The translations under genes and the position numbers were made by a program. The notes beneath the pieces are model-generated. The model searched no databases, was not told the origin of the DNA, and worked only from the letters and a program-made list of their open reading frames with translations. 62,064 bases of DNA from a virus, in IMG/VR virus record IMGVR_UViG_3300030060_002483, positions 1 through 62,064 of that record. The stretch is one strand, 5' to 3'. Within the stretch, counting starts at the first letter, position 1. Each line of letters starts with the position of its first letter. This document shows, one piece after another, positions 1,986-61,092 of the stretch.

Positions 1986-2451
1986 GTTACCACTGCATTA
2001 TAAAATAATCATAGCTTGGGCTATAGTTTTATTAGTAGGTATTGTTAGCGTAAACATAAAAGCAGATACTATAACCTTTAAGTTCAAAAACCCTTCATTT
2101 AGTGGAGTAGGAACTTCTAGTCATTACCTTACGATAGAAAATCAAGAATTTAACCGTAAAATGACTATAAAAGAAGAGATCAAAGCTTTACAGGAACAGA
2201 TAGAAAGAGATAAAGAAAACACAACTCTAGCTCGTTTTATTAGGAACCTTGAGAGCCGTATCTATGCACAGCTAAGTAGACAACTAGTGGAAAATTTATT
2301 CGGTGAAACACCTAGTGATAAAGGTACGTTAACTTTAGAGGGTAACACTATAGACTATAGTATTGAAGACGGAATAATAACTTTAACTATTACAGACCCA
2401 GATGGAAATGTCACCACGATACAGTTGCCTGTTGGCAATTTTACTTTCTAG
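1966..2451 (+). CDS. csgF: CsgF-like curli assembly factor
   Basis: 161 residues from the ATG at 1966; the longer frame from 1933 adds only a basic leader. Residues ~9-29 form a signal segment ending in KA, and the predicted mature protein begins DTITFKFKNPSFSG. This lines up with the mature start of E. coli CsgF (GTMTFQFRNPNFGG). The C-terminus (GNTIDYSIEDG, then DGNVTTIQLP) matches the conserved CsgF tail. In curli systems CsgF is exported through CsgG and caps the channel at the cell surface, where it couples curlin nucleation. The next gene encodes a CsgG-like protein and overlaps by 50 bases, which supports the call. A mid-region coiled coil (residues ~55-75) replaces part of the enterobacterial middle segment. 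Confidence 0.85.
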   Translation: MTKGKIKLPLHYKIIIAWAIVLLVGIVSVNIKADTITFKFKNPSFSGVGTSSHYLTIENQEFNRKMTIKEEIKALQEQIERDKENTTLARFIRNLESRIYAQLSRQLVENLFGETPSDKGTLTLEGNTIDYSIEDGIITLTITDPDGNVTTIQLPVGNFTF

Positions 2452-3283
2452 TTGCAGTATAGCACCTGTATTTAAAGAGTTAGAACAAAAAGGAGAATGC
2501 GTAAAATATAAAACTGTGTTAGATGGAACAGTTTATAGAAAATGCGTTGAAAGAGAACCTTATTTAAAAGGTTTGCCTAAAATTCTTGAGCTGCAATCAA
2601 AAGAATTATTAAATATAGAACCGCCTAAAAAACCTATTATAGTAGCTGTTTATCCTAACGCTTTTACAGATCAAACTGGTCAACGTAAAAGTAATAGTGA
2701 GTTTGCTTTATTCAGCACAGCTATAACTCAAGCACCTAGTCATTTATTAATACGTGCTTTAAAACAAACTGCTAACGGTGAGTTTTTTAGAGTGGCTGAA
2801 AGAGTAGGTTTAGATAACTTAACTAAAGAAAGACAGTTAATACGTTCAGCTAGAGAAAACGAAGATAATTCAAGCCCTTTACTACCTCTTTTATTTGCTG
2901 GTGTTTTAATGGAAGGTGCTATAGTAGGGTATGACACTAATGTAAAAAGTGGAGGTATAGGAGCTAGATATTTAGGGATAGGCACTAGTAAACAATACAG
3001 AGTAGATAGTGTTACCCTTTCATTACGTATGGTCTCAGTAGTAACAGGTGAAGTATTAATAGATGTTTTAGTAAATAAACAGATATATAGTTACGGTCAA
3101 TCACAAGATGTTTTTAGGTTTATAGAAGCTGGTACAGAATTAGTAGAGCTTGAGGGCGGTAATACTGAAAATGAATCAGTTACTATAGCTTTACAACGAG
3201 CTATAGAGTCAGCAGTTGTAGAGATTATAAAAATAGGTTATGATAAAGGATATTGGGAGCAAAAATATGAAGAAACTAATTAG
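2402..3283 (+). CDS. csgG: CsgG-like outer-membrane curli secretion lipoprotein
   Basis: 293 residues, close to the family length of about 277. The N-terminus is a lipoprotein signal with lipobox LSSC (Cys at ~18). Strong CsgG motifs follow: VGLDNLTKERQLIRSARE, VKSGGIGARYLGIG and the C-terminal AIESAVVEIIKIGYDKGYW. CsgG forms a nonameric outer-membrane channel that exports curlin subunits. Around the pore constriction, the Phe of the FSTA motif is kept but the Tyr of the E. coli constriction seems absent by eye. A second ATG lies at 2408. The neighbours are a CsgF-like gene upstream and a secreted curlin-like repeat gene downstream. No CsgE or CsgB homologue was seen in the window. Confidence 0.92.
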   Translation: MEMSPRYSCLLAILLSSCSIAPVFKELEQKGECVKYKTVLDGTVYRKCVEREPYLKGLPKILELQSKELLNIEPPKKPIIVAVYPNAFTDQTGQRKSNSEFALFSTAITQAPSHLLIRALKQTANGEFFRVAERVGLDNLTKERQLIRSARENEDNSSPLLPLLFAGVLMEGAIVGYDTNVKSGGIGARYLGIGTSKQYRVDSVTLSLRMVSVVTGEVLIDVLVNKQIYSYGQSQDVFRFIEAGTELVELEGGNTENESVTIALQRAIESAVVEIIKIGYDKGYWEQKYEETN

Positions 3284-3971
3284 TCTTTTACTCACAACAA
3301 CATTCGTATTTGCTGCGGATAATGAGATTTATGTTGACCAAAGCGGTGCAACAGCTAATATTGATTTAGAGCAACTAGGCTCTGGTAATATTATAGGCGG
3401 TTTAAACTCAGCTGCTGGTAGTTTAACAGCGTTAGATTTAGACGGATCAACTTTGACTTTAGACATAAATCAAATAGGTAACACTAATAAATTCTTAGGT
3501 GATATCTTAGGTGATACTATTACTGGTTTTTTTGAGTTTGATGGAGATAGTAATACTTTTACTATACAAGGTGACCCAACAGATACTTACGGTATAGATA
3601 GTTCAAACTATAACGTAAACGTTAGTGGTTCATCAAACACCTTTACACTCGACCACGGTACATCAGCATTAGCAGCAACACTAGACCTTGATTGGATAGT
3701 GCAAGGAGACGGTAACACTTTTGATTTTGATATAAATTATGACGGTGCTACTAATTACGTAGATGTTGACGGTGATAGCAACACGGTTAATTTCACAGGC
3801 TCAGGGTATGCTGGAGGTTATTTCTACCTTGATCAAACAGGTAATAGCAGAACATTTGATATTACACAATCGAGTACACTAGATAATGACTGGCTTAAAA
3901 TCATTTCTAATGGCAACAGTGGTACTGTGTGCGTTATACAAAACGACCAAGGCACAAGCACAAGTTGTTAA
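3267..3971 (+). CDS. Secreted curlin-like repeat protein
   Basis: 234 residues from the ATG at 3267, which has GGGAG at 3255-3259; the frame from 3240 would bury the signal peptide. Residues 1-17 (MKKLISLLLTTTFVFAA) form a Sec signal peptide. The body is a string of loosely repeated strands of the type xDxxGxSNTFxIxQ, for example DGDSNTFTIQG, SGSSNTFTLDHG and QGDGNTFDF. These resemble the Gln/Asn/Gly ladder of curlin CsgA repeats. Two Cys near the C-terminus could form a disulphide. The position directly after csgG suggests it is the substrate exported by the CsgG-like channel. The identity as an amyloid subunit is inferred from repeats and context only. Confidence 0.7.
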   Translation: MKKLISLLLTTTFVFAADNEIYVDQSGATANIDLEQLGSGNIIGGLNSAAGSLTALDLDGSTLTLDINQIGNTNKFLGDILGDTITGFFEFDGDSNTFTIQGDPTDTYGIDSSNYNVNVSGSSNTFTLDHGTSALAATLDLDWIVQGDGNTFDFDINYDGATNYVDVDGDSNTVNFTGSGYAGGYFYLDQTGNSRTFDITQSSTLDNDWLKIISNGNSGTVCVIQNDQGTSTSC

Positions 3972-4998
3972 TATAGGAGATATATCCGAGCTTTCAGGTT
4001 ACGCTGAAGTATTAAGAGATAAACCGTACGAAGCTGAACTAGAGTTTGCTATACGTAGCAACGATCAAGCTGTAACTAAAAACGGTAGGTTAGGTATACA
4101 GTTTTTAGACGACTCAGTAGTACGTTTAACAGAACACTCAAAACTACTTATCAATGAGTATGTTTACGACCCTGACCCTAGTAAAGCTAAAATGTCACTT
4201 AATTTTGCTTTAGGTACAGCTAGGTTTATAACGGGTAATTTAAACCGTATAGATAAACAAAACATAAAACTCACAACACCGACAGCAAACATAGCCATAC
4301 GTGGAACAGATTTTACAGCTACTGTTGATGAGTTAGGCAGGAGTTTGATAATACTTCTGCCAGACTCAATGGGTCTTTCAAGTGGTGAGATAGAGGTGGT
4401 AACTGCTATGGGTAGTGTTATATTAAATAAACCTTATGAAGCTACTACAGTTAGTGTCTTTGAATCAGTTCCTAGTAAACCTGTTATACTTGATCTTACC
4501 TTAGATATTATTGATAACATGTTGATAGTGAGTCCGCCTAAAGAAGAAATACTCGTTGAAGAAGAAACTAGTACTACTAAAACAGTAAGTTTACTAGACT
4601 TCAATGATTTAGATATAGATTATTTAGCTGAAGATTTTTTAAATACAGATGAACTTGAGTTTACTGAGCTCGATATAAATTACTTAGATGTAAACTTTCT
4701 AGAAGATTTACTAGATATCATAGATGCTTTAGCTATAGATGAAGAAGAGGATCAACTAGCTTTAGCAACTGGTGTTAATATTAGCGGTACGTTAATAGGT
4801 CAAGACCCCGATACACAAATAACTACTTTAGTTACTGGTCAAGTTATTAGTTTACGTCGTGCGGTAAGTGAGTCTGTACGTTTAGATTTAAACAGCGGTA
4901 ATAGTTACACGGTTATATTAATACAAGACGGTGTATCAAACGTAGTTAAAATAAACGGTGGTGGTGATTCAATAATAACTATTAAACAAAGCGGTTGA
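3886..4998 (+). CDS. Secreted FecR-domain protein
   Basis: 370 residues. Residues ~1-25 form a signal peptide (core FLMATVVLCALY, probable cleavage after AQA); an internal ATG at 3910 is an alternative start. Residues ~30-175 match a FecR domain: RSNDQAVTKNGRLGIQFLDDS, then SLNFALGTARFITGN, and TTPTANIAIRGTDF, the conserved TPtaxxxiRGTxF core. The C-terminal half is acidic and rich in repeated LDxxxLxxDFL segments. Gene starts overlap the curlin-like gene by 86 bases, and the stop overlaps the cyclase start (TGATG). FecR-domain proteins adjoin CHASE2 cyclases in many bacteria. No FecA, FecI or other partner is present. A role as periplasmic partner of the cyclase is inferred. Confidence 0.85.
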   Translation: MTGLKSFLMATVVLCALYKTTKAQAQVVNIGDISELSGYAEVLRDKPYEAELEFAIRSNDQAVTKNGRLGIQFLDDSVVRLTEHSKLLINEYVYDPDPSKAKMSLNFALGTARFITGNLNRIDKQNIKLTTPTANIAIRGTDFTATVDELGRSLIILLPDSMGLSSGEIEVVTAMGSVILNKPYEATTVSVFESVPSKPVILDLTLDIIDNMLIVSPPKEEILVEEETSTTKTVSLLDFNDLDIDYLAEDFLNTDELEFTELDINYLDVNFLEDLLDIIDALAIDEEEDQLALATGVNISGTLIGQDPDTQITTLVTGQVISLRRAVSESVRLDLNSGNSYTVILIQDGVSNVVKINGGGDSIITIKQSG

Positions 4999-6737
4999 TG
5001 AAAAAACTTATAATACCTATAGTTTTATTTTTATGTTTACCTTTAATATTTAAAAGTACTCCTACAGAAATAATAAAACTAAGAACTTTTGACACATTAG
5101 TAGAAAAACAAGAACCCTCTGGTTTTTTTACTATACTCAATATAACTGAAGAAGATGTAGCTAGTGAGGGTGGTTACCCTTTACCTAGACAAAGACTAGC
5201 TGAAATACACATAGAGCTTTTACAAAAAGGTGCTTTAGGTGTAGGTTGGGTACTATCTTTTCCACAACCAGACAGGTTAGGCGGAGATAAAGCATTCGCT
5301 GAAGCGTTGAGTTATGGCGGTTCAGTTATAGCAATGTTTGAAAATGAGAACGGAGTTTACCCACCTACTACAGGCACAGTCATTATGGGGGAAAACGCAG
5401 GAGGTATAGAGACTGTAGGAGTTATACCTAATATAGATATTCTAACTTCAACTTCTTTTCAAGGTGTGGCTACGGCACGTACGGAAGTAGATCAGTTAGT
5501 AAGACGTATGCCTTTATTACTAAAAACACCTGATGGCTACGTTTCTGCGTATGGCACAGAAGTTATGAAAGTGTTGGCAGGTAATCAAACATATATTATA
5601 AAAACTAATGAGTTAGGTATTGAAGAAATAATAGTACAAGGTCTTGATCCAGTAAAAACAGACAGTTTAGGTCGTAAGTGGATAAGTTGGGTAGACACAC
5701 CACAAACCACACTTAGTGAGATGGATGTTGAAAATAAATATGTTTTTGTAGGTGTTACAGCTAGTGGCGTGATGCCACAAGTTGCTACTCCAGTGGGTTT
5801 ATTAGAACCACATAAAATACAAACAGCTTTAGCTGAGTCAATATTAATTAAAAACTCACCATATATACCTGATTGGTCATTAACTTTAGAGTTAGTGATA
5901 CTAATAATTAGTGTTGTGTTAGTTTGGTTTTTAATAATTTTATTAGGTATAACGTGGGGTGTTTCCTTAGGAGTCCTTACAGCGTCAGCTACGTCATTAG
6001 GGGGATATTACTTAATAAGTAAGGGTTTATTAATAGACGTCACTTGGAGCCTTATAAGTCAATTTATCACTGGCTCAATAGCTTTTTACCTACGTTTTAG
6101 AGAACAGTATAAATTAAGACAATTAATTAAAAAACAGTTTGAGCATTACCTCGATCCACGACAAGTAAAACAACTACAAAAGAATCCTGAACTATTAAAA
6201 CTAGGCGGTGAAAAAAGATACTGTACTTTTTTATTCACTGATGTGCGTGGGTTTACCGCTTTATCTGAAATATTAGAACCAGAAGAAGTTACTCATATTA
6301 TGAACAGAGCTTTGACTATACAATCAAACGCAGTAAAAGAATATGGCGGTATGGTAGACAAGTATATAGGTGACGCTATGATGGCTATCTTTAACGCTCC
6401 TATAGACCTGCCAGACCATGAGAATAGAGCCATACAAACAGCGTTGAAAATACAGGAAGATATGCAAAAAGCCAATTTAGGTATAGAAATAGGTATAGGC
6501 ATAAACTCTGGAGAAGCGATAATAGGTAATATGGGTAGTGATTCACGGTTTGATTATTCTGCTATAGGCGACGCTGTAAATACTGCAGCTCGTTTAGAAA
6601 GTGCAACTAAAGAAGCTGGAGTAAATTTAATAATAGGTCATAATACTAAAAAAAGTTCAAAATATAAGTTAAAATTGTTAAAGCCTATAAAAGTTAAAGG
6701 CAAAAGACATAAACTAAGTATATATACATATGGCTAG
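4998..6737 (+). CDS. CHASE2-domain class III adenylate cyclase
   Basis: 579 residues from the ATG at 4998. It has an N-terminal membrane segment (~4-20), a periplasmic CHASE2 domain (~25-290), three clustered membrane segments (~295-365) and a C-terminal class III nucleotide cyclase domain (~395-579). The catalytic set looks complete. Metal-binding Asp415 lies in FTDVRGFTALSE and Asp459 in KYIGDAMMAIF. Lys455 is the purine-specifying Lys. Asn528 and Arg532 are the transition-state pair in GDAVNTAARLES. The partner position that is Asp or Thr in adenylate cyclases is Ser521. The expected product is cAMP made in the host cytoplasm in response to an unknown periplasmic signal. It is coupled to the FecR gene by TGATG. 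A full-length sensory cyclase of this type is unusual for a phage. Confidence 0.93.
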   Translation: MKKLIIPIVLFLCLPLIFKSTPTEIIKLRTFDTLVEKQEPSGFFTILNITEEDVASEGGYPLPRQRLAEIHIELLQKGALGVGWVLSFPQPDRLGGDKAFAEALSYGGSVIAMFENENGVYPPTTGTVIMGENAGGIETVGVIPNIDILTSTSFQGVATARTEVDQLVRRMPLLLKTPDGYVSAYGTEVMKVLAGNQTYIIKTNELGIEEIIVQGLDPVKTDSLGRKWISWVDTPQTTLSEMDVENKYVFVGVTASGVMPQVATPVGLLEPHKIQTALAESILIKNSPYIPDWSLTLELVILIISVVLVWFLIILLGITWGVSLGVLTASATSLGGYYLISKGLLIDVTWSLISQFITGSIAFYLRFREQYKLRQLIKKQFEHYLDPRQVKQLQKNPELLKLGGEKRYCTFLFTDVRGFTALSEILEPEEVTHIMNRALTIQSNAVKEYGGMVDKYIGDAMMAIFNAPIDLPDHENRAIQTALKIQEDMQKANLGIEIGIGINSGEAIIGNMGSDSRFDYSAIGDAVNTAARLESATKEAGVNLIIGHNTKKSSKYKLKLLKPIKVKGKRHKLSIYTYG

Positions 6738-12372: not shown

Positions 12373-14776
12373 AAGAGATGTTTATACAGATAATGTGTTC
12401 AGACCAAATGAGGAACCCACATTACCGAGCTCAGTTACGGATAACGTATTTAGACCGAATCAAGAAACCCCACAGCCTGTGATGTATTCAGGAATCGCCA
12501 ACACAGGCACTGACACAGAAATAGTTGATCAAGCTACTGAAAATATGATTGCTGCCCTTGACCCTGTTTTAGTAGGTGACGACCCAACACTCAACGAATT
12601 ATTAAATAGCTCAGCTGTGTATGGTTCTTTAAATAAAGACGTAGATACTATACGTGATACGTATAACGCTGTACGTAATATTAATGATGACAAACTACTT
12701 ACAGATGAAGAAAAACAAGGTGTGTATAGAGACGCAGTAAGTAAAATGTTAGAAATACCTGAAGAAGATTTAGGTAAATACTTTCAAAAACCAGACGAAG
12801 CTTTACCGTTTATGGTGGCTGGTGCTTCGTTAAAAGCCTCAGGTAAACGTGGTGACAGTTTAGGGGAGAGTTTACTAGAAGCTTTTATGAGTTACAGAGT
12901 AGCTAAAAAGAGTGGCGAAAAAGCTTTTGATAAACAAGTAAAAGACTACGAACTAAGTAAAAAGAAATTAGTTGATAGGTTCCTAGTAGATTTAGCAATA
13001 GATGATGAAAGAACTTTAAATAATATAGCTCAAGCTTATTTAAACGACAGGTATTTTGAATCACCTAAAATGTATATGATATCAGACTCTAAAGGAGAGT
13101 TTGTTAATCCACCTAAAGTCATGAGTGATTTTGAAGTAAATAAATTTAAAAGTAATAACCCTAACGTAACTATAAGACCTTATGATAAAGCTGAAGACGA
13201 TTTAAAAAACTATACTATTAGGTATAGAGAAAAAGACGGCACTACCAGTGAGGTTAGTGGTTTAATGACTAAAGGTGCTGTAAGAAATTACATACCTATA
13301 GACAGCGGAGGTTTAGGTAAATACGATAACGTATTAAGCGTTGAAGAAGGGGCTGGTAATACTAACCTTAAAAATTATTTAATTGAGTACACAGACGGTA
13401 GAGAGGCTACACAAATATCTTTAAACCCTGACCAATATACTGCGTATAATAATGAAAAAGATAGTAGAGGAATAAAAAGTATTAGTCAGCTTACTGGCGG
13501 TTTTACTTGGGCTATAGACAATAGAGGTGAGTCACCTGTGCTAGGTTACTTTAGTAACGCAGAACTAGCATCGGCAGGTCCAGGAGACTTTAGCCCTAAA
13601 CCAGGAATGAACGTAGAGGTTACAAAAGATGGCGTGGTAATGAGTGACGGTAGCCCTAATGCTATGTTAACGGCTAAGTATAAAGACGGTAGAAAAAAAG
13701 GCGAAGAAATAAGAACTAAAATAGACACTACAGAAACATTAGTAGATAATTATTTTATATCAGCCAGACAAGTAGATGACCTTTTAGCAGAGTTTGAAGG
13801 TAATAGAGATTTACTTATGAATAACCTAGCTGCACAAGGAGCTACCTTCGCTGATAAAGTAGTAGTTAGTATCAACGCAATAGGTGATTTATTCAGGAGC
13901 CCAGCTAAAGAAGGCGGATATACTTTTAAAGTAGGTAACGAAACAGTTAGTTACACCGACTTTCAAAGTAGTATTATAGACAGCCGAGAGTGGCAAGAAT
14001 TTAGTAAAGGTCCGTTAGGTCAAACTTTAAAAGACGCTGGTGTTACTGGACAAGCATTTAACGCAGCACTTTTTGATTTAGCAATGATTGCTGCCAGTAC
14101 TTACGGTAATAAAGAAAGTTTAGATATGCGTGCGTTGAGTGATAAAGACATACAACTTTTCTTAAGAACTCAAGGTAATGAAGCTTATAGTTTTGACGGT
14201 TATTTAAAAATAATAGGTGGTTTTAGAACTAGATTATTAGAACGTAATATTAACGTACTAGAAAGATACTTAGAAGACCCAGCTTATTTCTATGAAGGTA
14301 TTATAGATGAAAGAGGTAACTATGATTCTGACTGGCAAAAAACTACCAATGATAGAATAAGAACTATACTAGGTGTAGACGAAGAAGGTAATGAAACTGG
14401 AGAAGGGCTTTACGGTTTACTTAGAGAAACAGCTGATATTACTGCACCTAACGCAACACCTACTTTAAAAAGAACTGACGACGTTAGTAGTACAGATAAA
14501 AATGAAATAGACTTAACTGAATTAGTATTAGACCCACAAAGCCAAAACGTGGTACAAGCTTTTAGTGCTTACGGAGTGACACCTAGTAAAACTTACACAC
14601 AAAACACTGAACTACGTAACGGTTATAGTATAGGCAATTTAGTTAATATGTATTTATCTACTCCACCAGAGTCGCAAGCACGTGCTATATTTTTAGCTAA
14701 TTTAAAGAAACAACTTAGAGAAGAAGAATATGCTGCGTTTGATATTTATAAGAGTTTAGCAGTGAGGAATCAATAA
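12365..14776 (+). CDS. Large putative internal virion protein
   Basis: 803 residues from a GTG start at 12365 that overlaps the upstream stop by 8 bases. The N-terminus holds two near copies of TDNVFRPNxE (residues ~8-33). The rest is charged and mixed alpha/beta without a recognised domain. Its position between two other large proteins suggests it is packaged in or ejected from the head, but this is inference. Confidence 0.72.
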   Translation: MPRRDVYTDNVFRPNEEPTLPSSVTDNVFRPNQETPQPVMYSGIANTGTDTEIVDQATENMIAALDPVLVGDDPTLNELLNSSAVYGSLNKDVDTIRDTYNAVRNINDDKLLTDEEKQGVYRDAVSKMLEIPEEDLGKYFQKPDEALPFMVAGASLKASGKRGDSLGESLLEAFMSYRVAKKSGEKAFDKQVKDYELSKKKLVDRFLVDLAIDDERTLNNIAQAYLNDRYFESPKMYMISDSKGEFVNPPKVMSDFEVNKFKSNNPNVTIRPYDKAEDDLKNYTIRYREKDGTTSEVSGLMTKGAVRNYIPIDSGGLGKYDNVLSVEEGAGNTNLKNYLIEYTDGREATQISLNPDQYTAYNNEKDSRGIKSISQLTGGFTWAIDNRGESPVLGYFSNAELASAGPGDFSPKPGMNVEVTKDGVVMSDGSPNAMLTAKYKDGRKKGEEIRTKIDTTETLVDNYFISARQVDDLLAEFEGNRDLLMNNLAAQGATFADKVVVSINAIGDLFRSPAKEGGYTFKVGNETVSYTDFQSSIIDSREWQEFSKGPLGQTLKDAGVTGQAFNAALFDLAMIAASTYGNKESLDMRALSDKDIQLFLRTQGNEAYSFDGYLKIIGGFRTRLLERNINVLERYLEDPAYFYEGIIDERGNYDSDWQKTTNDRIRTILGVDEEGNETGEGLYGLLRETADITAPNATPTLKRTDDVSSTDKNEIDLTELVLDPQSQNVVQAFSAYGVTPSKTYTQNTELRNGYSIGNLVNMYLSTPPESQARAIFLANLKKQLREEEYAAFDIYKSLAVRNQ

Positions 14777-33145: not shown

Positions 33146-33609
33146 AAAATACAGATAATACTAGATGTGTACGCTGTAAGGGTAAGATAGGCTACAGGTA
33201 CAGAAAAGAAGGTATAGTTGTTTGTGAAAAATGTAACCCAAATAAAAGTCCGTATCAAGTAGGTAGAGCTAAAGTATCAGAAAAAGACGGTAGAATATAC
33301 GAAGGATTACGTAAACAATTTTTAGGAGCACACCTAGATGATATTAATATTATTGACCGTAGTAACGATTACCGTGTGGATCATGGTATACTTGGTTTAG
33401 CAGAGCAGTTTGAAGAACGTGATAAAGTGGCTAGGCGTGAATATGAGAATAAAAGAGTTCACGACGCTTTAATAACTATGCATGAAGCTATAATAGAAAA
33501 CAAGGGTGAAAGCAGTAGTACACAAAGATACCGTAGACGTAAATTAATACCTGAAAACTTGAGGGATACCGCAGGTAAGTTTATGTTAGGTATGAAAGGT
33601 TGGAGATGA
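33133..33609 (+). CDS. Zinc-ribbon protein
   Basis: 158 residues. CVRCKGK and CEKCNPNK (residues ~12-40) form a CxxC...CxxC zinc ribbon. The rest is basic and helical. It directly precedes the small terminase gene and overlaps it by ATGA, so it might help in packaging or regulation. No closer family is seen. Confidence 0.7.
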   Translation: METIENTDNTRCVRCKGKIGYRYRKEGIVVCEKCNPNKSPYQVGRAKVSEKDGRIYEGLRKQFLGAHLDDINIIDRSNDYRVDHGILGLAEQFEERDKVARREYENKRVHDALITMHEAIIENKGESSSTQRYRRRKLIPENLRDTAGKFMLGMKGWR

Positions 33610-34073
33610 AGAAAAAGAAGTTAACCCCACGCCAAGAAAAATACGCACAAAACGTAGCTAAAGGTATGAGCAAGAAAGACGCAGCACAAAAAGCAGGTTA
33701 TAGCGAAAAGAATGCAGCTAGAGCGGGTAGTGTGCTTGACAGTAAAGCCAACCCTTTAGTAAGCCAACGTATACAAGCCTTACAGAAAAAAGCAGCCAAA
33801 AAAGTAGAACTTGATTTATCTACTCACCTTACAGATTTAAAAGACATACGTGAGGGAGCTATGCGTAATGGTGCGTGGTCTGCTGCCGTTACTGCAGAAG
33901 TAGCTAGGGGTAAAGCAGCAGGATTATACATTAACCGTAGTGAGCTAGTAGTGAATAAAGTAGAGACTATGGATAAAGAACAAATACTAGACCGTTTAAA
34001 AGAACTTTACTATGAGACTGGAGGTATATTACCAATGGGCACTATCATAGAAGGTGATTCAGAAACCTCGTAA
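33606..34073 (+). CDS. terS: Terminase small subunit
   Basis: 156 residues from the ATG at 33606 (ATGA overlap); a TTG two codons upstream is an alternative. The N-terminus LTPRQEKYAQNVAKGMSKKDAAQKAGYS is the Terminase_2 helix-turn-helix signature (core motifs LTPRQEKYAQ and AAQKAGYS). A central helical region and an acidic C-terminus follow. It recognises phage DNA and presents it to TerL. It is unusual in lying about 7.5 kb before terL, separated by small genes and noncoding regions. Confidence 0.82.
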   Translation: MKKKKLTPRQEKYAQNVAKGMSKKDAAQKAGYSEKNAARAGSVLDSKANPLVSQRIQALQKKAAKKVELDLSTHLTDLKDIREGAMRNGAWSAAVTAEVARGKAAGLYINRSELVVNKVETMDKEQILDRLKELYYETGGILPMGTIIEGDSETS

Positions 34074-34130
34074 AATAATACTTTACATCCTTATACAATT
34101 TAACTAACCTATAACTAGGTTATAAACTGC

Positions 34131-34226
34131 CTACTATTTGATATCGGTTTATAATTTAGGTGGTTTGAAGACACCAACGAAGAAGTACGCTTCGTTATTA
34201 TTCTTTTATGTCATAGTAGAACCACC
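34131..34226 (+). ncRNA. Structured RNA element 1 (GAAGACA motif, pseudoknot potential)
   Basis: Four elements can be seen. CTACTAT (34131-34137) can pair with ATAGTAG (34213-34219). GGTGGTT (34159-34165) can pair with AACCACC (34220-34226). TGAAGACACCAACG (34166-34179) follows directly. AACGAAG and CTTCGTT (34176-34182 and 34190-34196) form a 7-bp hairpin. The first two helices are in the order a-b-a'-b', a pseudoknot arrangement. No gene covers this region. The 14-base motif repeats exactly in element 2. Confidence 0.5.
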
Positions 34227-34239
34227 GATTTTTAAATTA

Positions 34240-34333
34240 GGGTTGAACTAATTGAAGACACCAACGGAGTGCTCTGTCTTTACCTATATTTTAGCAGAGT
34301 ACTACAAGACGTCGTAGTAGATTAGTTTGACCC
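34240..34333 (+). ncRNA. Structured RNA element 2 (GAAGACA motif)
   Basis: A 13-bp outer stem pairs 34240-34252 with 34321-34333 using two G-T wobbles. TGAAGACACCAACG follows directly (34253-34266), as in element 1. Inside, AAGACA (34255-34260) can pair with TGTCTT (34275-34280), and TACTAC (34300-34305) with GTAGTA (34314-34319). A pyrimidine-rich TCTTTTATTT tail follows, so it could also act as a terminator. The gene at 34373 starts 39 bases later. Confidence 0.5.
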
Positions 34334-34372
34334 GCTCTTTTATTTATTAGCAATAGAAGGTAATATATTCAT

Positions 34373-34684
34373 ATGGCTTTAACCTTATTATTCAGCAACG
34401 GTAAAAAACTCAAAAAACCTATAACCAAAGAAAAGACAAAGACATGGTATGTCCCGTATACCACTATAGAAGTTGAGATGCACAAGATAGAAGCTGATAC
34501 GTATCAAGAAGCTATTAGTAAAGCAACTCTACGTAACCGTAAGGGCAAGGTAAAGACATACACACTACAAGAAACACACTCAACCGACGCTTTTTTAACT
34601 CCGCACGTTAAAGAGCCTAATGAATTATTCAGTAGGTTTATTCATATGTTTAACGTCACGGTTGAAGATTTTGATAATACCTAG
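34373..34684 (+). CDS. Small basic hypothetical protein
   Basis: 103 residues, Lys/Thr-rich, with GAAGG about 15 bases before the ATG. A beta-rich region (TWYVPYTTIEVEMHKIEADT) resembles small phage proteins with an alpha/beta fold. It stands right after the tandem RNA elements, so it may be controlled by them. Function unknown. Confidence 0.68.
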   Translation: MALTLLFSNGKKLKKPITKEKTKTWYVPYTTIEVEMHKIEADTYQEAISKATLRNRKGKVKTYTLQETHSTDAFLTPHVKEPNELFSRFIHMFNVTVEDFDNT

Positions 34685-37892: not shown

Positions 37893-37964
37893 AGCTGTTT
37901 CTTATATATTGGCTGTGGAAAAAAAGTTTTCTAAAACTGTAAAAGTTTTCTATTTAGCTAATAA

Positions 37965-38021
37965 GCCAATAGTCACGGAGCTGTAAAGCTCTACTCTAGT
38001 CCTTTTATCGTGGCTATTGGC
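37965..38021 (+). ncRNA. Stem-loop element with GNRA tetraloop
   Basis: A 13-bp stem pairs 37965-37977 with 38009-38021 with one wobble. Inside is the hairpin GAGCT-GTAA-AGCTC (37978-37991), capped by a GNRA-type loop. A 17-base single strand (37992-38008) follows. GGCTATTGGCTA (38012-38023) can instead pair perfectly with 38259-38270, so two folds compete. Confidence 0.5.
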
Positions 38022-38040
38022 TACCCTATTACCGACCTAT

Positions 38041-38159
38041 TGCCTATTTGAAGACAATAACTTATTGATGGGTAATTATTGGTAACACTAACCATAAAAC
38101 ATGTAGCAGGTTTGGTAATAGAATAAACCGAATAACAGTTCTCTATATAGGCAGAACTG
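38041..38159 (+). ncRNA. Structured RNA element 3 (GAAGACA motif, pseudoknot potential)
   Basis: TGCCTAT (38041-38047) can pair with ATAGGCA (38147-38153), which forms the loop of the hairpin CAGTTCT...AGAACTG (38137-38143 and 38153-38159). This is a pseudoknot order. TGAAGACA (38049-38056) follows the first strand, as in elements 1 and 2. The motif is shorter than the 14 bases shared by those two. Confidence 0.42.
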
Positions 38160-38204
38160 AGAAAACCTAGGGACACGCACCACGAACCAAAATATATGGA
38201 CCAC

Positions 38205-38332
38205 GGACCAAGGACACCGACCAAAGACAAAGACATCATGATCATGATCCAAAGACAATAGCCAATAGCCCATGGACCAAGGACAAAGACACAAAGACAA
38301 AGACACAAGGAACTATGATCATGATCATGATC
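38205..38332 (+). repeat. Two imperfect 69-base direct repeats with GATC clusters
   Basis: GGACCAAGGACA occurs at 38205-38216 and again at 38274-38285, a period of 69. Each copy continues with AAAGACAAAGACA-like sequence and then ATGATCATGATC, two units at 38238-38249 and three at 38315-38332. Five GATC sites lie within 95 bases. The layout resembles iterons of a replication origin, or a packaging site. Confidence 0.55.
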
Positions 38333-38476
38333 TTGTTGTACTTCGCTCCTGGTCACCCTAAATCCGCTCAAAAAATAAAGGGACTTTTTTAGTATATAGG
38401 GCTTTACTTTTACTATACTTTGGACTAATATAATAGGGTATTATATATTAATTAGGGCTAAGCCCAGGAGGTAAAA

Positions 38477-38722
38477 ATGTCTAATACTAAAACTAAATCG
38501 GTGTCCGTTAACGCTAACCCTAACCCAGCCGTGATTACGGTTGACGTTAGTAAAGCTAGAGTTGAGGGAGCTAACTTTAACCAGACCCGCCTTAAAAAAG
38601 CGAGTAAGGCAAAAACCCGTAATGACTTAGTAGAAATATATACTACGTTATTCGGTAGTAATAATTACCGTAGCCATTTAAACTACGATATTAAGAAGGG
38701 AGCTATAGTACTAGAAAGCTAG
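38477..38722 (+). CDS. Small basic hypothetical protein
   Basis: 81 residues with a strong AGGAGG site. It is basic, with a Val/Asn/Pro-rich N-terminus (SVSVNANPNPAVITV) and a helical Lys-rich centre (TRLKKASKAKTRNDL). An own promoter and terminator make it a single-gene unit. A small nucleic-acid binding role is possible but not shown. Confidence 0.72.
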   Translation: MSNTKTKSVSVNANPNPAVITVDVSKARVEGANFNQTRLKKASKAKTRNDLVEIYTTLFGSNNYRSHLNYDIKKGAIVLES

Positions 38723-38740
38723 TACTACCCAGCCGAGTTA

Positions 38741-38764
38741 GGGGAGTTTATACTCCCCTTTTTT
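38741..38764 (+). terminator. Rho-independent terminator
   Basis: GGGGAGT (38741-38747) pairs with ACTCCCC (38752-38758) around TTAT and ends in six T. It closes the single-gene unit at 38477 and has the same core as the terminator at 21644. Confidence 0.9.
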
Positions 38765-56220: not shown

Positions 56221-59200
56221 ATGGCAACATATGTAAATGATTTAAGGTTAAAAGAAATAACCACGGGAGATGAGTCAGGTACTTGGGGAGACTCTACTAA
56301 TACTAATTTAGAGTTAATAGCAGAGGCGTTTAGTTTTGGCACTGAAGCTATAACAACTAACGCAGATACACATACTACAACAATAGCAGACGGCTCTACC
56401 GATCCAGGTAGATCTATTTATTTAAAATACACAGGTACACTTGATTCAGCTTGTACCATAACTATAGGACCTAACACTGTATCTAAACTATGGTTGATTG
56501 AAAACGGTACATCAGGTTCACAAAACATTATTATTTCTCAAGGATCTGGCGCAAACGTCACGATTCCAGCAGGTCATGTAAAAGCTGTATATTCAGACGG
56601 AGCAGGATCTGGTGCAGCTATAGTAGATGCTTTTACTAACCTAAATCTAGGCGGTACTACTACAGTAGATGACTTAACTATCTCTGATGATCTTACAGTA
56701 ACGGATGACATGTCTATCGGTGGTGCTTTAACACTTACAGGTAATGCAGACTTTAATGGCGATTTAGACGTAGACGGTACAGCTAATCTAGATGTAGTTG
56801 ATATAGATGGAGCTGTAGATATGGCATCTACTTTAGCTGTAGGTGGTGTTGTAACTGCAAACGCAGGTGTAGTTGTAGATAACATTACTATAGACGGTAC
56901 AGAAATAGATTTATCAAGTGGCGATCTTACGATTGATGTTGCAGGAGATATTATCCTTGATGCTGATGGTTCAACTATAAGCATGAAAGATGGTGGTACA
57001 ACCAGATACACATTTAATTTAGATGCAACGCCTAATCTTGTTATGGCAGGTGGAAACGCCAGTATAACTGCTTCTACATCTGATGCAGACTTATCATTTA
57101 TAGGTAATGATGGTGGTTCAGATGTAACTGCCCTTACCCTTGATATGTCAGATGCTGGTACTGCAACCTTTAATCACGATATAAAACTTGGTGATGGTGG
57201 TATAGCTAAATTTGGTGCAGGTGGAGATTTACAAATTTTTCATGACGGTTCAGATAGTTTTATAAATGATACAGGTACAGGTAATTTACTAATTAGAGCA
57301 GCAGACCAATTTCTTTTACAAGACACAGGTGGGAAAACACACATAAAATCTGTAATAGATGCACAAACTGAACTGTATCATAACAACTCTAAAAAACTAG
57401 AAACAACAAGTTCAGGTGTAGACGTTACAGGTACAATCAATGGTGCAGGTATATTATCTAATGCTGCTAATTTTGGTGAAGGTCTTTTAATTAGTCAAGA
57501 TGCAGGTACAGGTACACTTTCATCTGCTAATAGAAACACAGGATTTGGTTATGAAGTTTTTGATGACTTAACATCTGGTGACGATAATACAGCTTTTGGT
57601 CAACAAGCATTAGCTGCATTAACAACAGCTGGACATAATACAGCTGTAGGCTCTAATGCATTAGAATCAAATACCACAGGTGCTGAAAATACTGCAGTTG
57701 GTTCAGCATGTTTAGATGCTAATACTACAGGTACAGATAATACTGCTATTGGATTTGCTTCATTAGGAAATAACACAACAGCAAGTAGAAATACTGCTGT
57801 TGGTAATGTAGCCTTAAATGAAAATACAACTGGTGCAGATAATACTTCTGTAGGTAAATCAGCATTAGAAAAAAATACTACAGGCACTCAAAACACAGCA
57901 GTTGGTAGTTTAGCTTTAGATGCAAATACTACAGCTAGTAACAATACTGCTATGGGTCATAATGCTTTAACAGCAAATACTACAGGTGCTGAAAATACAG
58001 CAGTTGGTGCTGAAGCATTAGAAGCTAATACTACTGGAACAAGAAACACAGCAGTTGGTCAGCAATCTTTAGAAGCAAACACAGAAGGCACAGACAATTC
58101 TGCTTTTGGTAAAAATGCATTAGCATCAAATACTACTGGAATTACTAATAGTGCTTTTGGTCGTAATTCATTGTTTGCAAACACCACAGCTGATAACAAT
58201 ACAGCTGTTGGTTATAACTCATTAGCAGCAAACACTACAGGAGACCAAAACGTTGCAGTAGGTTCTTTAGCTGGAGATGCAATTACTACAGGATCACAAA
58301 ACACAGCAATTGGTTATGCATCTTTAACAAGTGCAACTACAGCAAGTAGTAATACTGCTATAGGTAGAGCAACATTAAATGAAAATAGCTCAGGAGCTAG
58401 TAATACAGCTGTTGGACATGATGCTTTAGAATCAAACACGACAGCCTCAAACAACACAGCAGTAGGTGCACAAGCTTTAACTGCTAACACCACAGGTGCT
58501 AGTAACACAGCAGTAGGTTCAGGTGCTTTAGTAGCAAACACAACAGCAAACAGTAATACTGCTGTAGGTTTTGATGCTCTAAATGACAACACAACAGGTG
58601 CAAATAATACTGCTATAGGTGCAGGAACTTTAGATAAAAATACTACAGGAAGTTTTAATGTTGCATTAGGTTCAGCAGCTTTAGACGCTAATACTACAGG
58701 TGCTAACAACACAGCAGTTGGTTACTCTGCTTTATCTGCAACCACTACAGCCGACAACAATACAGCAGTAGGTATGCAAGCATTAAACGCAAACACTACA
58801 GGTGCTCAAAACGTAGCTGTTGGTCAAGGTTCATTAGAAGCAAATACCACAGGAGCTTCAAATACTGCTATTGGCAGAACTGCTTTATTATCAAACACTA
58901 CAGGTGCTAATAATACTGCTTTAGGTAGTAATGCCTTAGATGCTAATACAACTGCGGATGGCAATACAGCAATAGGTAAAGATTCTCTAGGAGCGAATAC
59001 AACAGGTCATTCTAATACTGCTATTGGTAAAGACTCATTAAAACTTAATGTAGATGGTAACAGGAACACAGGGCTTGGTTTTGGAGCTTTAAATGTAGCA
59101 AACTCACCAGATGATAATACTATGGTGGGATATTTTGCAGGTGTATCAATTACTACTGGAAATTCAAATACAGCAGTTGGTTCTTTTGCACTTGATGCTA

Positions 59201-61092
59201 ACACTACCGCAAGTAATAACACAGCTATAGGTTATCAATCTCTAAGTGCAAACACGACAGCAAGTGCTAACGTTGCTGTTGGTAAAAGAGCTTTAGCGAG
59301 TAACACTACTGGTACTAATAACGTAGCTGTAGGTACAGATGCCTTAGAAAATCACACAACAGGTTCAGATAATATAGCCGTAGGTAAAAATGTTGCTAAT
59401 GCTTTAACTACAGGTAACACTAATATAGCTATTGGTGGTCAAGCTATGAACACTAATACAGTAGGCGATAGAAACGTAGCTATAGGTTATTCAGCTCTAG
59501 AAACTTACAACCCAGCTAGTAATGAAGATTCATATAACGTAGCAGTCGGTTTTGCTGCTCTAGAGGCAGATACCACAGGTAAAAATAATACTGCTATAGG
59601 TGGTAATGCTTTGTTAGTAAACACAACAGGTGGCAATAATACTGCTGTTGGTACATCTGCCTTACTTGCTAATACTACAGCAAGTAGCAATACAGCAGTT
59701 GGTAAATCAGCAGCATCAGCAATAACTACAGGAACAGGGAATGTAGCTGTTGGAGCACAAGCTTTGGAGTCTACTACTACTTCTAATGGTAATACAGCAT
59801 TAGGTTATATATCTTTACATAGCAACACCACAGGTGCAACAAACACAGCAGTAGGTCAAGAGGCTTTACAAAAGAATACAACTGCAAACTTTAATGTTGC
59901 AGTCGGATATCAAGCCTTAGAAGAAAACACCACAGGTGCAAATAACACAGCTATAGGTACTAATGCTTTAGATGATAATACAACAGCAAGTAATAACACA
60001 GCAGTTGGTAGAGCAGCATTAAGTGCTAACACTACAGCTAGCGATAATACTGCTATAGGTTATCAAGCTTTAGAAGCAAACACCACAGGTACAAGGAATA
60101 CTGCTATGGGTAGTGTAGCATTAGATGCTAACACTACAGGTGATGATAATACTGCTTATGGTTATGCTGCTTTAGGTGTAAATACAACTGGTATAAACAA
60201 TACTGCTATAGGTGTTGATGCTTTAGATGCTAACACCACAGCTTCTAATAACACAGCAGTTGGTTATAAATCTTTAACAGCAAACACTACAGGCACTAAT
60301 AACGTAGCACTTGGTAGGACTGCTTTATCAACAGCAAGTACTGGAAGTGCTAATACAGCTATTGGAAAGGATGCTTTAGCCTCATTAACTACATCTGATA
60401 ATAATACTGCTTTAGGTAAATCAGCAGGTACTAACGTAACTACAGGCGAACAAAATACTTTATTAGGACAAGTATCAGCTGGGTCTTTAACTTCTGGTGA
60501 CGACAATATAGCTATAGGGCATGATGCTGCTGATAACTTAACTACTGGTCAACAAAATATTGCTATCGGTGTTGATACATCTTTATCAGCTGCAGATGGT
60601 GCTAATCAAATAGTTATGGGACAAAATGTTACCTGTGTTGGTAATAGTAACTTTACATTTGGTGATGGCACTACAGATTCTAATATTGCTTTTGGTGCAA
60701 CTTCTATAACAGCACCATCAGATGTAAGACTAAAAGAAGATATACAAGACGAAGAAGTAGGTTTAGATTTTGTAAATGATTTAAGACCTGTAACTTTCCT
60801 TTGGAAAAAAGAAAAAGATATACCTTCGGATATGAAAGCTTATAAAGAAGATTCAGAAGCAAGAACTATGAATGGTAAATATAATCATGGTTTTATAGCA
60901 CAAGAAGTTAAAGAAGTGATTGATAATCACAATTTAAAAGAAGGCTTTGATATGTGGTCAGAAGATGAAACAGATGGAAGGCAAAGAATTGCACCATCAG
61001 CTATGATGTCTATAATGGTTAAAGCAGTACAAGAACTGTCTACGCAAGTAGATGAATTAAAAGCCGAAATACAAACCTTAAAGGAGGATTAA
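56221..61092 (+). CDS. Large tail fibre with repeat shaft and S74 chaperone domain
   Basis: 1,623 residues. Residues ~1-145 form a head domain with DLRLKEITTGDESGTWGDSTN, a virion-attachment type I recall from marine phages. A beta-rich stalk (~145-450) follows. Then ~455-1435 is a run of 17-residue YadA-head-like units (NTAVGxxALxANTTGAx). The end is a peptidase S74 domain with Ser1500 in the SDVRLKED motif and a C-terminal coiled coil. Trimerisation and self-cleavage are expected. It likely binds the host surface. The first part to 60009 also joins in frame to the window start, giving an alternative tip. Confidence 0.92.
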   Translation: MATYVNDLRLKEITTGDESGTWGDSTNTNLELIAEAFSFGTEAITTNADTHTTTIADGSTDPGRSIYLKYTGTLDSACTITIGPNTVSKLWLIENGTSGSQNIIISQGSGANVTIPAGHVKAVYSDGAGSGAAIVDAFTNLNLGGTTTVDDLTISDDLTVTDDMSIGGALTLTGNADFNGDLDVDGTANLDVVDIDGAVDMASTLAVGGVVTANAGVVVDNITIDGTEIDLSSGDLTIDVAGDIILDADGSTISMKDGGTTRYTFNLDATPNLVMAGGNASITASTSDADLSFIGNDGGSDVTALTLDMSDAGTATFNHDIKLGDGGIAKFGAGGDLQIFHDGSDSFINDTGTGNLLIRAADQFLLQDTGGKTHIKSVIDAQTELYHNNSKKLETTSSGVDVTGTINGAGILSNAANFGEGLLISQDAGTGTLSSANRNTGFGYEVFDDLTSGDDNTAFGQQALAALTTAGHNTAVGSNALESNTTGAENTAVGSACLDANTTGTDNTAIGFASLGNNTTASRNTAVGNVALNENTTGADNTSVGKSALEKNTTGTQNTAVGSLALDANTTASNNTAMGHNALTANTTGAENTAVGAEALEANTTGTRNTAVGQQSLEANTEGTDNSAFGKNALASNTTGITNSAFGRNSLFANTTADNNTAVGYNSLAANTTGDQNVAVGSLAGDAITTGSQNTAIGYASLTSATTASSNTAIGRATLNENSSGASNTAVGHDALESNTTASNNTAVGAQALTANTTGASNTAVGSGALVANTTANSNTAVGFDALNDNTTGANNTAIGAGTLDKNTTGSFNVALGSAALDANTTGANNTAVGYSALSATTTADNNTAVGMQALNANTTGAQNVAVGQGSLEANTTGASNTAIGRTALLSNTTGANNTALGSNALDANTTADGNTAIGKDSLGANTTGHSNTAIGKDSLKLNVDGNRNTGLGFGALNVANSPDDNTMVGYFAGVSITTGNSNTAVGSFALDANTTASNNTAIGYQSLSANTTASANVAVGKRALASNTTGTNNVAVGTDALENHTTGSDNIAVGKNVANALTTGNTNIAIGGQAMNTNTVGDRNVAIGYSALETYNPASNEDSYNVAVGFAALEADTTGKNNTAIGGNALLVNTTGGNNTAVGTSALLANTTASSNTAVGKSAASAITTGTGNVAVGAQALESTTTSNGNTALGYISLHSNTTGATNTAVGQEALQKNTTANFNVAVGYQALEENTTGANNTAIGTNALDDNTTASNNTAVGRAALSANTTASDNTAIGYQALEANTTGTRNTAMGSVALDANTTGDDNTAYGYAALGVNTTGINNTAIGVDALDANTTASNNTAVGYKSLTANTTGTNNVALGRTALSTASTGSANTAIGKDALASLTTSDNNTALGKSAGTNVTTGEQNTLLGQVSAGSLTSGDDNIAIGHDAADNLTTGQQNIAIGVDTSLSAADGANQIVMGQNVTCVGNSNFTFGDGTTDSNIAFGATSITAPSDVRLKEDIQDEEVGLDFVNDLRPVTFLWKKEKDIPSDMKAYKEDSEARTMNGKYNHGFIAQEVKEVIDNHNLKEGFDMWSEDETDGRQRIAPSAMMSIMVKAVQELSTQVDELKAEIQTLKED
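57585..60570 (+). repeat. About 55-60 tandem 51-base (17-residue) shaft units
   Basis: Degenerate 51-base units code for NTAxGxxAL-x(3)-NTTGxx. The units are similar in protein but diverged in DNA, and adjacent units differ more at third positions. Such an array can slip or recombine. The same units continue in the fragment at 1-510. Confidence 0.85.

Follow-up and report, generated by a model that had tools for sequence, protein, structure and literature searches.

The phage genome analyzed here, a record of 62,064 bases taken whole (the window), carries behind its terminase small-subunit gene what is very probably an array of structured RNAs maintained by selection on pairing. Such arrays, i.e., tandem runs of two to six stem-closed non-coding modules, occur in at least about 18 distinct versions among marine relatives of phages HTVC027P and HTVC023P. 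An earlier note, made from the sequence alone, had described two tandem elements at this locus. A reading of the two as a self-contained pair is rejected. In relatives, a run of stem-closed modules stands at the same place, and the window's elements are what is left, after partial decay, of a larger array of modules.

The Gap Downstream of the Small Terminase Gene

A gap of 299 nt (34074–34372) separates the terminase small-subunit (TerS) gene (33606–34073, plus strand; Pfam Terminase_2, 2.3e-8; PHROG 51, 2.3e-16) from a 103-aa gene of unknown function (34373–34684, plus strand; no Pfam or PHROG match), which lies outside the array. The latter gene is 98% identical at the related loci L125 and L306, whose arrays differ from that of the window. 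The gap had been read as non-coding, and no database-supported coding sequence was found in it. The two proposed stem-closed elements are present, at 34158–34226 and 34240–34333 on the plus strand, and the region containing both folds better than 200 of 200 dinucleotide shuffles (z −3.69).

Element 1 (34158–34226; z −3.14 alone) is an intact copy of a module, called F, as indicated by covariance model R1, its homologues, and its fold. The closing stem pairs GGTGGTT (34159–34165) with AACCACC (34220–34226), and the 14-mer TGAAGACACCAACG (34166–34179) stands directly 3′ of the 5′ arm. In the inner hairpin, AACGAAG (34176–34182) pairs with CTTCGTT (34190–34196). GACA (34170–34173) is pairable with TGTC (34209–34212), and the strand from 34197 to 34208 is U-rich. 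The R1 score is 81.9 bits (E 3.8e-18), the window copy itself being in the R1 training set; homologues of the element are found at L124, L123, and L355/L361. Two helices in pseudoknot order had also been claimed for element 1. The arms of the helix in question, CTACTAT (34131–34137) and ATAGTAG (34213–34219), both read on the plus strand, are indeed present, but L124, the closest homologue, does not have the 5′ arm, so this helix is not a conserved feature.

Element 2 (34240–34333; z −4.01) is an F module in degenerate form, closed by a 13-bp stem, as judged by comparison with L123 and L361/L355 and by its fold. The stem is formed by GGGTTGAACTAAT (34240–34252) and ATTAGTTTGACCC (34321–34333), with two G-U pairs among the 13. 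As the earlier note had noticed, the same 14 bases come directly after the outer stem here too (34253–34266), and the 62-kb record has exactly two perfect copies of them, one per element. The inner stem, AGTGCTCTG (34268–34276) with CAGAGTACT (34295–34303), is unlike that of element 1 in sequence yet paired, which also agrees with the first description. Comparison identifies the center of element 2 (34267–34303) as the closing stem left by a nested copy of F after loss of its core: L123 has a complete nested F at the matching position, and L361/L355 have an undisturbed F on a closing stem nearly identical to that of element 2. The R1 score of only 19 bits (E 0.36) is as expected of a disrupted copy. 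Elements 1 and 2 also have the 3′ side GTCRTAGTAG in common; thus, their likeness exceeds the 14-mer, and they are paralogous modules.

Between the two elements lies a linker with a T-run (34227–34239, plus strand), recognized by eye; modules of the relatives are also followed by a G and a T-rich stretch (CCGNNTTTNTTT-like), again by eye. Upstream of element 1 is the G unit (34119–34155, plus strand; z −2.85), a 37-nt remnant of another module, A, as seen by comparison with the intact A in L123–125. It retains the outer stem of A (TTATAAAC...GTTTATAA) and the first junction bases, while about 70 nt of the A core are gone. The unchanged 37-bp unit is found elsewhere in L306, inside the equivalent of element 2. 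A search with the module A model gave no match in the window. Since the nested F is whole in L123 and the window has no A match, the window is left with one F intact, one F degenerate, and A gone.

Modules and Their Order in Related Phages

The large terminase of the window shares 61% identity with its counterpart in Pelagibacter phage HTVC027P, 60% with those of 023Pt_psg01 and DSL-LC04, and 55% with that of HTVC023P. The stretch 2402–6737 has a CsgG match (PF03783, 7.5e-52) and, after it, ORFs of FecR-like and adenylate-cyclase-like appearance; they correspond to the curli-secretion gene set that HTVC023P-type phages are reported to carry (PMC9599517). Judged by this kinship, SAR11 cells are the likely hosts.

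A small-terminase search gave 80 related loci, and pattern scans added further ones. The units found in their arrays are heterogeneous, 55–110 nt long, and mutually unrelated in sequence, each with its own closing stem. Module A is a three-way junction of about 100 nt; wherever present, it occurs once per array, ahead of the other listed modules. In modules B and C, a closing stem encloses an interleaved pair of helices, and for B the H-type pseudoknot is supported by covariation. Hairpins whose internal parts are conserved make up modules D, E, H, I, and J. Apart from A, B, and F, the letters denote groupings made by eye. The order of modules is A-B in L131, A-B-E-D in L129, A-C-B-D in L215, A-B-I-C-E-D in L207, and A-C-J-I-D-like in L326.

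Among close phages, the order is G-F-F in the window, A-F-F′ in L124, A-H-F in L125, A-H-F with F nested inside in L123, and A-B-F with G inside in L306. The DNA polymerase, small terminase, and downstream genes of these five are mostly 96–99% identical, and the gene just upstream of TerS is 90–93% identical. On this comparison, module cores have evidently been swapped between phages with nearly the same flanking genes. The cores themselves are conserved across phages whose terminase small subunits are 75–99% identical.

The arrays occupy several insertion sites. Five upstream contexts are seen: the small terminase, a second gene that L129 and L130 have in common, a third gene in the L132 group, a MazG-like gene, and an unrelated gene in L361. 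The downstream genes fall into roughly eight to ten groups, and the arrays are always co-directional with their neighbors.

Module F recurs in three lineages, one of which is an unrelated phage: L355/L361 belong to another phage lineage, with a large terminase nearest that of Aeromonas phage phiA008 (52%). With three stricter module F patterns, the only true copies, judged by hairpin, closing stem, and model R1, were those in L123, L124, and L355/L361. A scan of 84,980 genomes from bacteria and archaea with the F pattern gave nothing but chance matches. Matches to TGAAGACACCAACG in viral contigs were, among the matches listed, mostly chance occurrences in protein-coding DNA and were set aside.

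The earlier note had recognized no known RNA family in the elements. This agrees with Rfam 15, which gave no match above the gathering threshold for either the window or 12 related loci; a permissive Rfam search of the L131 array returned only E > 5. No similarity to the arrays was found in the INPHARED phages (50,697 records), weak matches at E about 1–5 being discarded. A 2009 screen covered RNAs of Pelagibacter and marine metagenomes (PMC2704228).

Covariation, Folding, and Strand

In 18 distinct sequences of module A, 93.6% of cells are paired. The covariation score is 0.242 versus 0.090 in shuffles, none of 500 reaching it, and sliding the partners gives 0.077 or less. Single pairs take up to four types, for instance GU, GC, UA, and AU at columns 29/42, and the long single-stranded loops of A are invariant. 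For the module B pseudoknot (nine sequences), the score is 0.243; shuffles give 0.128, again with none of 500 reaching the score, and sliding gives 0.089 or less. Neither the number of pairs nor that of pair types is out of the ordinary, as 46 and 72 of 500 shuffles, respectively, reach them for A, and 141 of 500 for both counts in B. As the shuffle control leaves relatedness in place and these counts are ordinary, the case is a joint one, made by the score together with the changed cells and the slid control. All structural statements on A derive from this 18-sequence test and not from the module A model, R2, the structure line of which is partly shifted by one column; R2 served only as a sequence-heavy locator of copies.

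Covariation in F appears weaker than in A and B, with four sequences available. In the inner hairpin, two pairs are changed on both sides and a third pair becomes G-U (AACGAAG/CTTCGTT versus CACGGAG/CTCCGTG). The strands on either side, AGACACC and TTCTTTTATGTC, hardly vary, and GACA/TGTC is invariant in all four. Four markedly different closing stems, each fully paired, carry the F core, namely, those of window elements 1 and 2, of the nested copy in L123, and of L361, which is independent support for the closing stem. In the same way, module C occurs on two unrelated closing stems, GGUGGUC/GACCACC or GGUGACGAA/UUCGUCACC. Folded thermodynamically by themselves, B and C do not stand out (z −1.8 and −1.0), as expected if a pseudoknot is not modeled; the case for these two modules therefore comes from comparison. 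In the homologues, pairing is thus kept by compensatory changes (in A and B, and less strongly in F), so the proposal of structured RNA elements withstands the test set for it at the outset, a lack of covariation.

These results bear directly on the reading that the array is functionless, i.e., decaying or neutral inverted-repeat sequence. The window copy, with its G remnant and disrupted element 2, is indeed partly decayed, but compensatory change in A and B lies above the shuffled and the slid control alike, the cores persist across phages with 75–99% identical small terminases, and F is conserved in an unrelated phage; for the array family, this very improbable reading is largely refuted already.

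Base-pair composition gives an indication of the strand. Among inverted repeats listed automatically, the unique stems have 45 G-U versus 27 A-C positions, the A-C positions being mostly extensions past the module stems. Seventeen closing stems hand-picked from that list have 21 G-U versus 1 A-C on the coding-direction strand (binomial p ~1e-5); as they were chosen after the list had been seen, the bias is taken as supporting evidence only. It favors the coding-direction strand as a single-stranded nucleic acid, for which RNA is the natural candidate.

Possible Roles of the Array

The leading guess for function, which we hold at somewhat below even chances, is a role in trans, as a decoy or in counter-defence. 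It is proposed from the mode of evolution and from two precedents, pseudo-ToxI and Racr. The locus would encode small non-coding RNA modules in tandem, each folding on its own and consisting of a structured core on its own closing stem; they would be transcribed and be stable as separate units. Recombination would exchange cores between stems and between phages, and selection would preserve base pairing. In the infected cell, the modules would act in trans as stable structured RNAs binding host factors; possible targets are host RNases or defence proteins, for which the modules may be decoys. Trans-acting decoys would explain the fast turnover of content with kept structure and the shifting gene neighborhoods. 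To our knowledge, SAR11 cells are not known for rich defence, which counts against a decoy or counter-defence role. A promoter-like site is found upstream of one array group only; the mean upstream promoter score is 8.0 versus 6.9, a level that 30% of random windows reach.

Pseudo-ToxI of phage PhiTE is a phage-encoded RNA decoy strategy, and the 36-nt repeats of ToxI are almost identical to one another (PMC3475682). The arrays resemble pseudo-ToxI and type III antitoxins in being phage-borne tandem non-coding RNA units with fast recombinational turnover; a pseudoknot topology is supported by covariation for module B of the relatives. In contrast, ToxI repeats have no individual closing stems, whereas the array units are longer, stem-closed, and sequence-unrelated. 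Racrs are phage-encoded small non-coding RNAs acting on host immunity (PMC10651486). The array modules are likewise small phage non-coding RNAs, with action on immunity only supposed; unlike Racrs, which copy CRISPR repeats, they showed no likeness to such repeats that was noticed on an unsystematic look. Phage tRNA clusters include extra stable RNAs, e.g., RNAs C and D of T4, and are similar to the arrays as tandem small stable RNA genes varying between close phages. They differ in that ARAGORN detected no tRNA in the window, nor in any of 18 array loci, finding neither a cloverleaf with anticodon nor the tag peptide of a tmRNA.

A further reading is that the locus is a new kind of phage RNA locus, a cassette array in which diverse cores are swapped onto few closing stems, as an RNA counterpart of an anti-defence gene island; we put this forward tentatively, as doubtful. 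Equally tentative is the set of cores it would comprise, namely, three-way junctions, pseudoknots, and hairpins with U-rich internal loops. What is claimed as new is the array architecture and not the function, as set against an open-access literature, incompletely covered, in which no description of such arrays was found. Modules A, B, C, D, and F would amount to several new RNA families, with structures defined and ready for probing. If fast-changing, host-acting structured RNAs are indeed what the arrays encode, they would form a largely unseen layer of phage–host conflict, missed by protein-based annotation.

The main rival to action in trans is control in cis of transcription or mRNA, which we consider possible but rather unlikely. 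Here, module A would be a put-like leader and the later stems with their T-runs would be terminators, pause sites, or stabilizing hairpins. Its single copy and foremost position in every array that has it suit module A to such a role, as do the T-rich stretches after modules and the co-direction of arrays and genes. There is also a precedent in HK022 put, where a nascent structured phage RNA controls termination (PMC9378689). The likeness would lie in a phage transcript that contains structured RNA, with module A as the possible leader; however, put is a pair of simple stem-loops, whereas the structure of A is a three-way junction, and its loops are invariant. Terminators do not need pseudoknotted or three-way-junction cores, and in the window array, a terminator-like flag is limited to the inner hairpin of element 1. 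The window keeps other modules despite the loss of A. Moreover, the downstream genes differ in kind between arrays, and this spread of unrelated genes and contexts argues against control of one particular gene.

A third reading, which we regard as improbable, is that the units are DNA-level elements, either mobile palindromes or ssDNA hairpins for replication, recombination, or packaging. IS200/IS605-type and REP/MITE palindromes are stem-closed and nested and have internal-deletion derivatives, all of which the array units share. The G unit, found at different sites in two close phages (the window and L306), resembles a MITE-like internal-deletion derivative with inverted ends kept; F is nested in F in L123; and some arrays adjoin TerS. 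Against this, other arrays follow the MazG-like gene, away from TerS, and the IS200/IS605-type Y1 transposase (PF01797) is absent from 12 records, whereas control genomes were positive. Invariant loops, as in A, and compensatory pairing also set the arrays apart from such palindromes. The G-U excess of the hand-picked stems (45:27 unfiltered) points the same way, though a plus-strand DNA hairpin would give the same bias.

That the modules are type III toxin–antitoxin antitoxins or pseudo-ToxI-type RNAs is very improbable: tandem RNA units, the H-type pseudoknot in B, the phage setting, and the pseudo-ToxI precedent suggest it, but the units are heterogeneous and stem-closed rather than near-identical tandem repeats of ~36 nt, covariation supports the pseudoknot in the relatives' module B and not in the window's F, and a ToxN search (PF13958) gave no match in 12 records, nor in the control genomes meant to give one.

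Intergenic stretches that fold also lie close to the terminase genes of HTVC027P, HTVC023P, 023Pt_psg01, and DSL-LC04, and the array module sequences are absent from these. In the cultured SAR11 phage HTVC027P (L374; MN698241, 17671–18218), an unannotated 548-nt gap between the terminase genes (z −4.41 against dinucleotide shuffles) folds into several stem-closed units, sequence-unrelated to the array modules. RNA-seq of Ca. Pelagibacter HTCC1062 infected with HTVC027P has been published (PMC12753301), so the proposal of structured RNAs acting on the host is directly testable.

Some further stretches were noted in passing. In the unrelated phage L361, a second stem-closed stretch (12871–12975; TGACTCTCT...AGAGAGTCA) directly follows F and is possibly another array. 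The window has a second long non-coding stretch at 37893–38478. Within it, a 14-bp hairpin (37964–38022) contains an inner GAGCT hairpin and TCCTTTTAT, in a layout somewhat like that of module F; after it, as far as about 38340, come GGACCAAGGACAAAGAC-type repeats along with ATGATCATGATC palindromes. At 38740–38764 there is a strong intrinsic terminator-like hairpin, AGGGGAGTTTATACTCCCCT, followed by a T-run. Lastly, a 1623-aa ORF (56221–61092) has dozens of short NTAVG-type repeats, and a shorter ORF at the opposite end of the record (87–941) has the same type of repeat.
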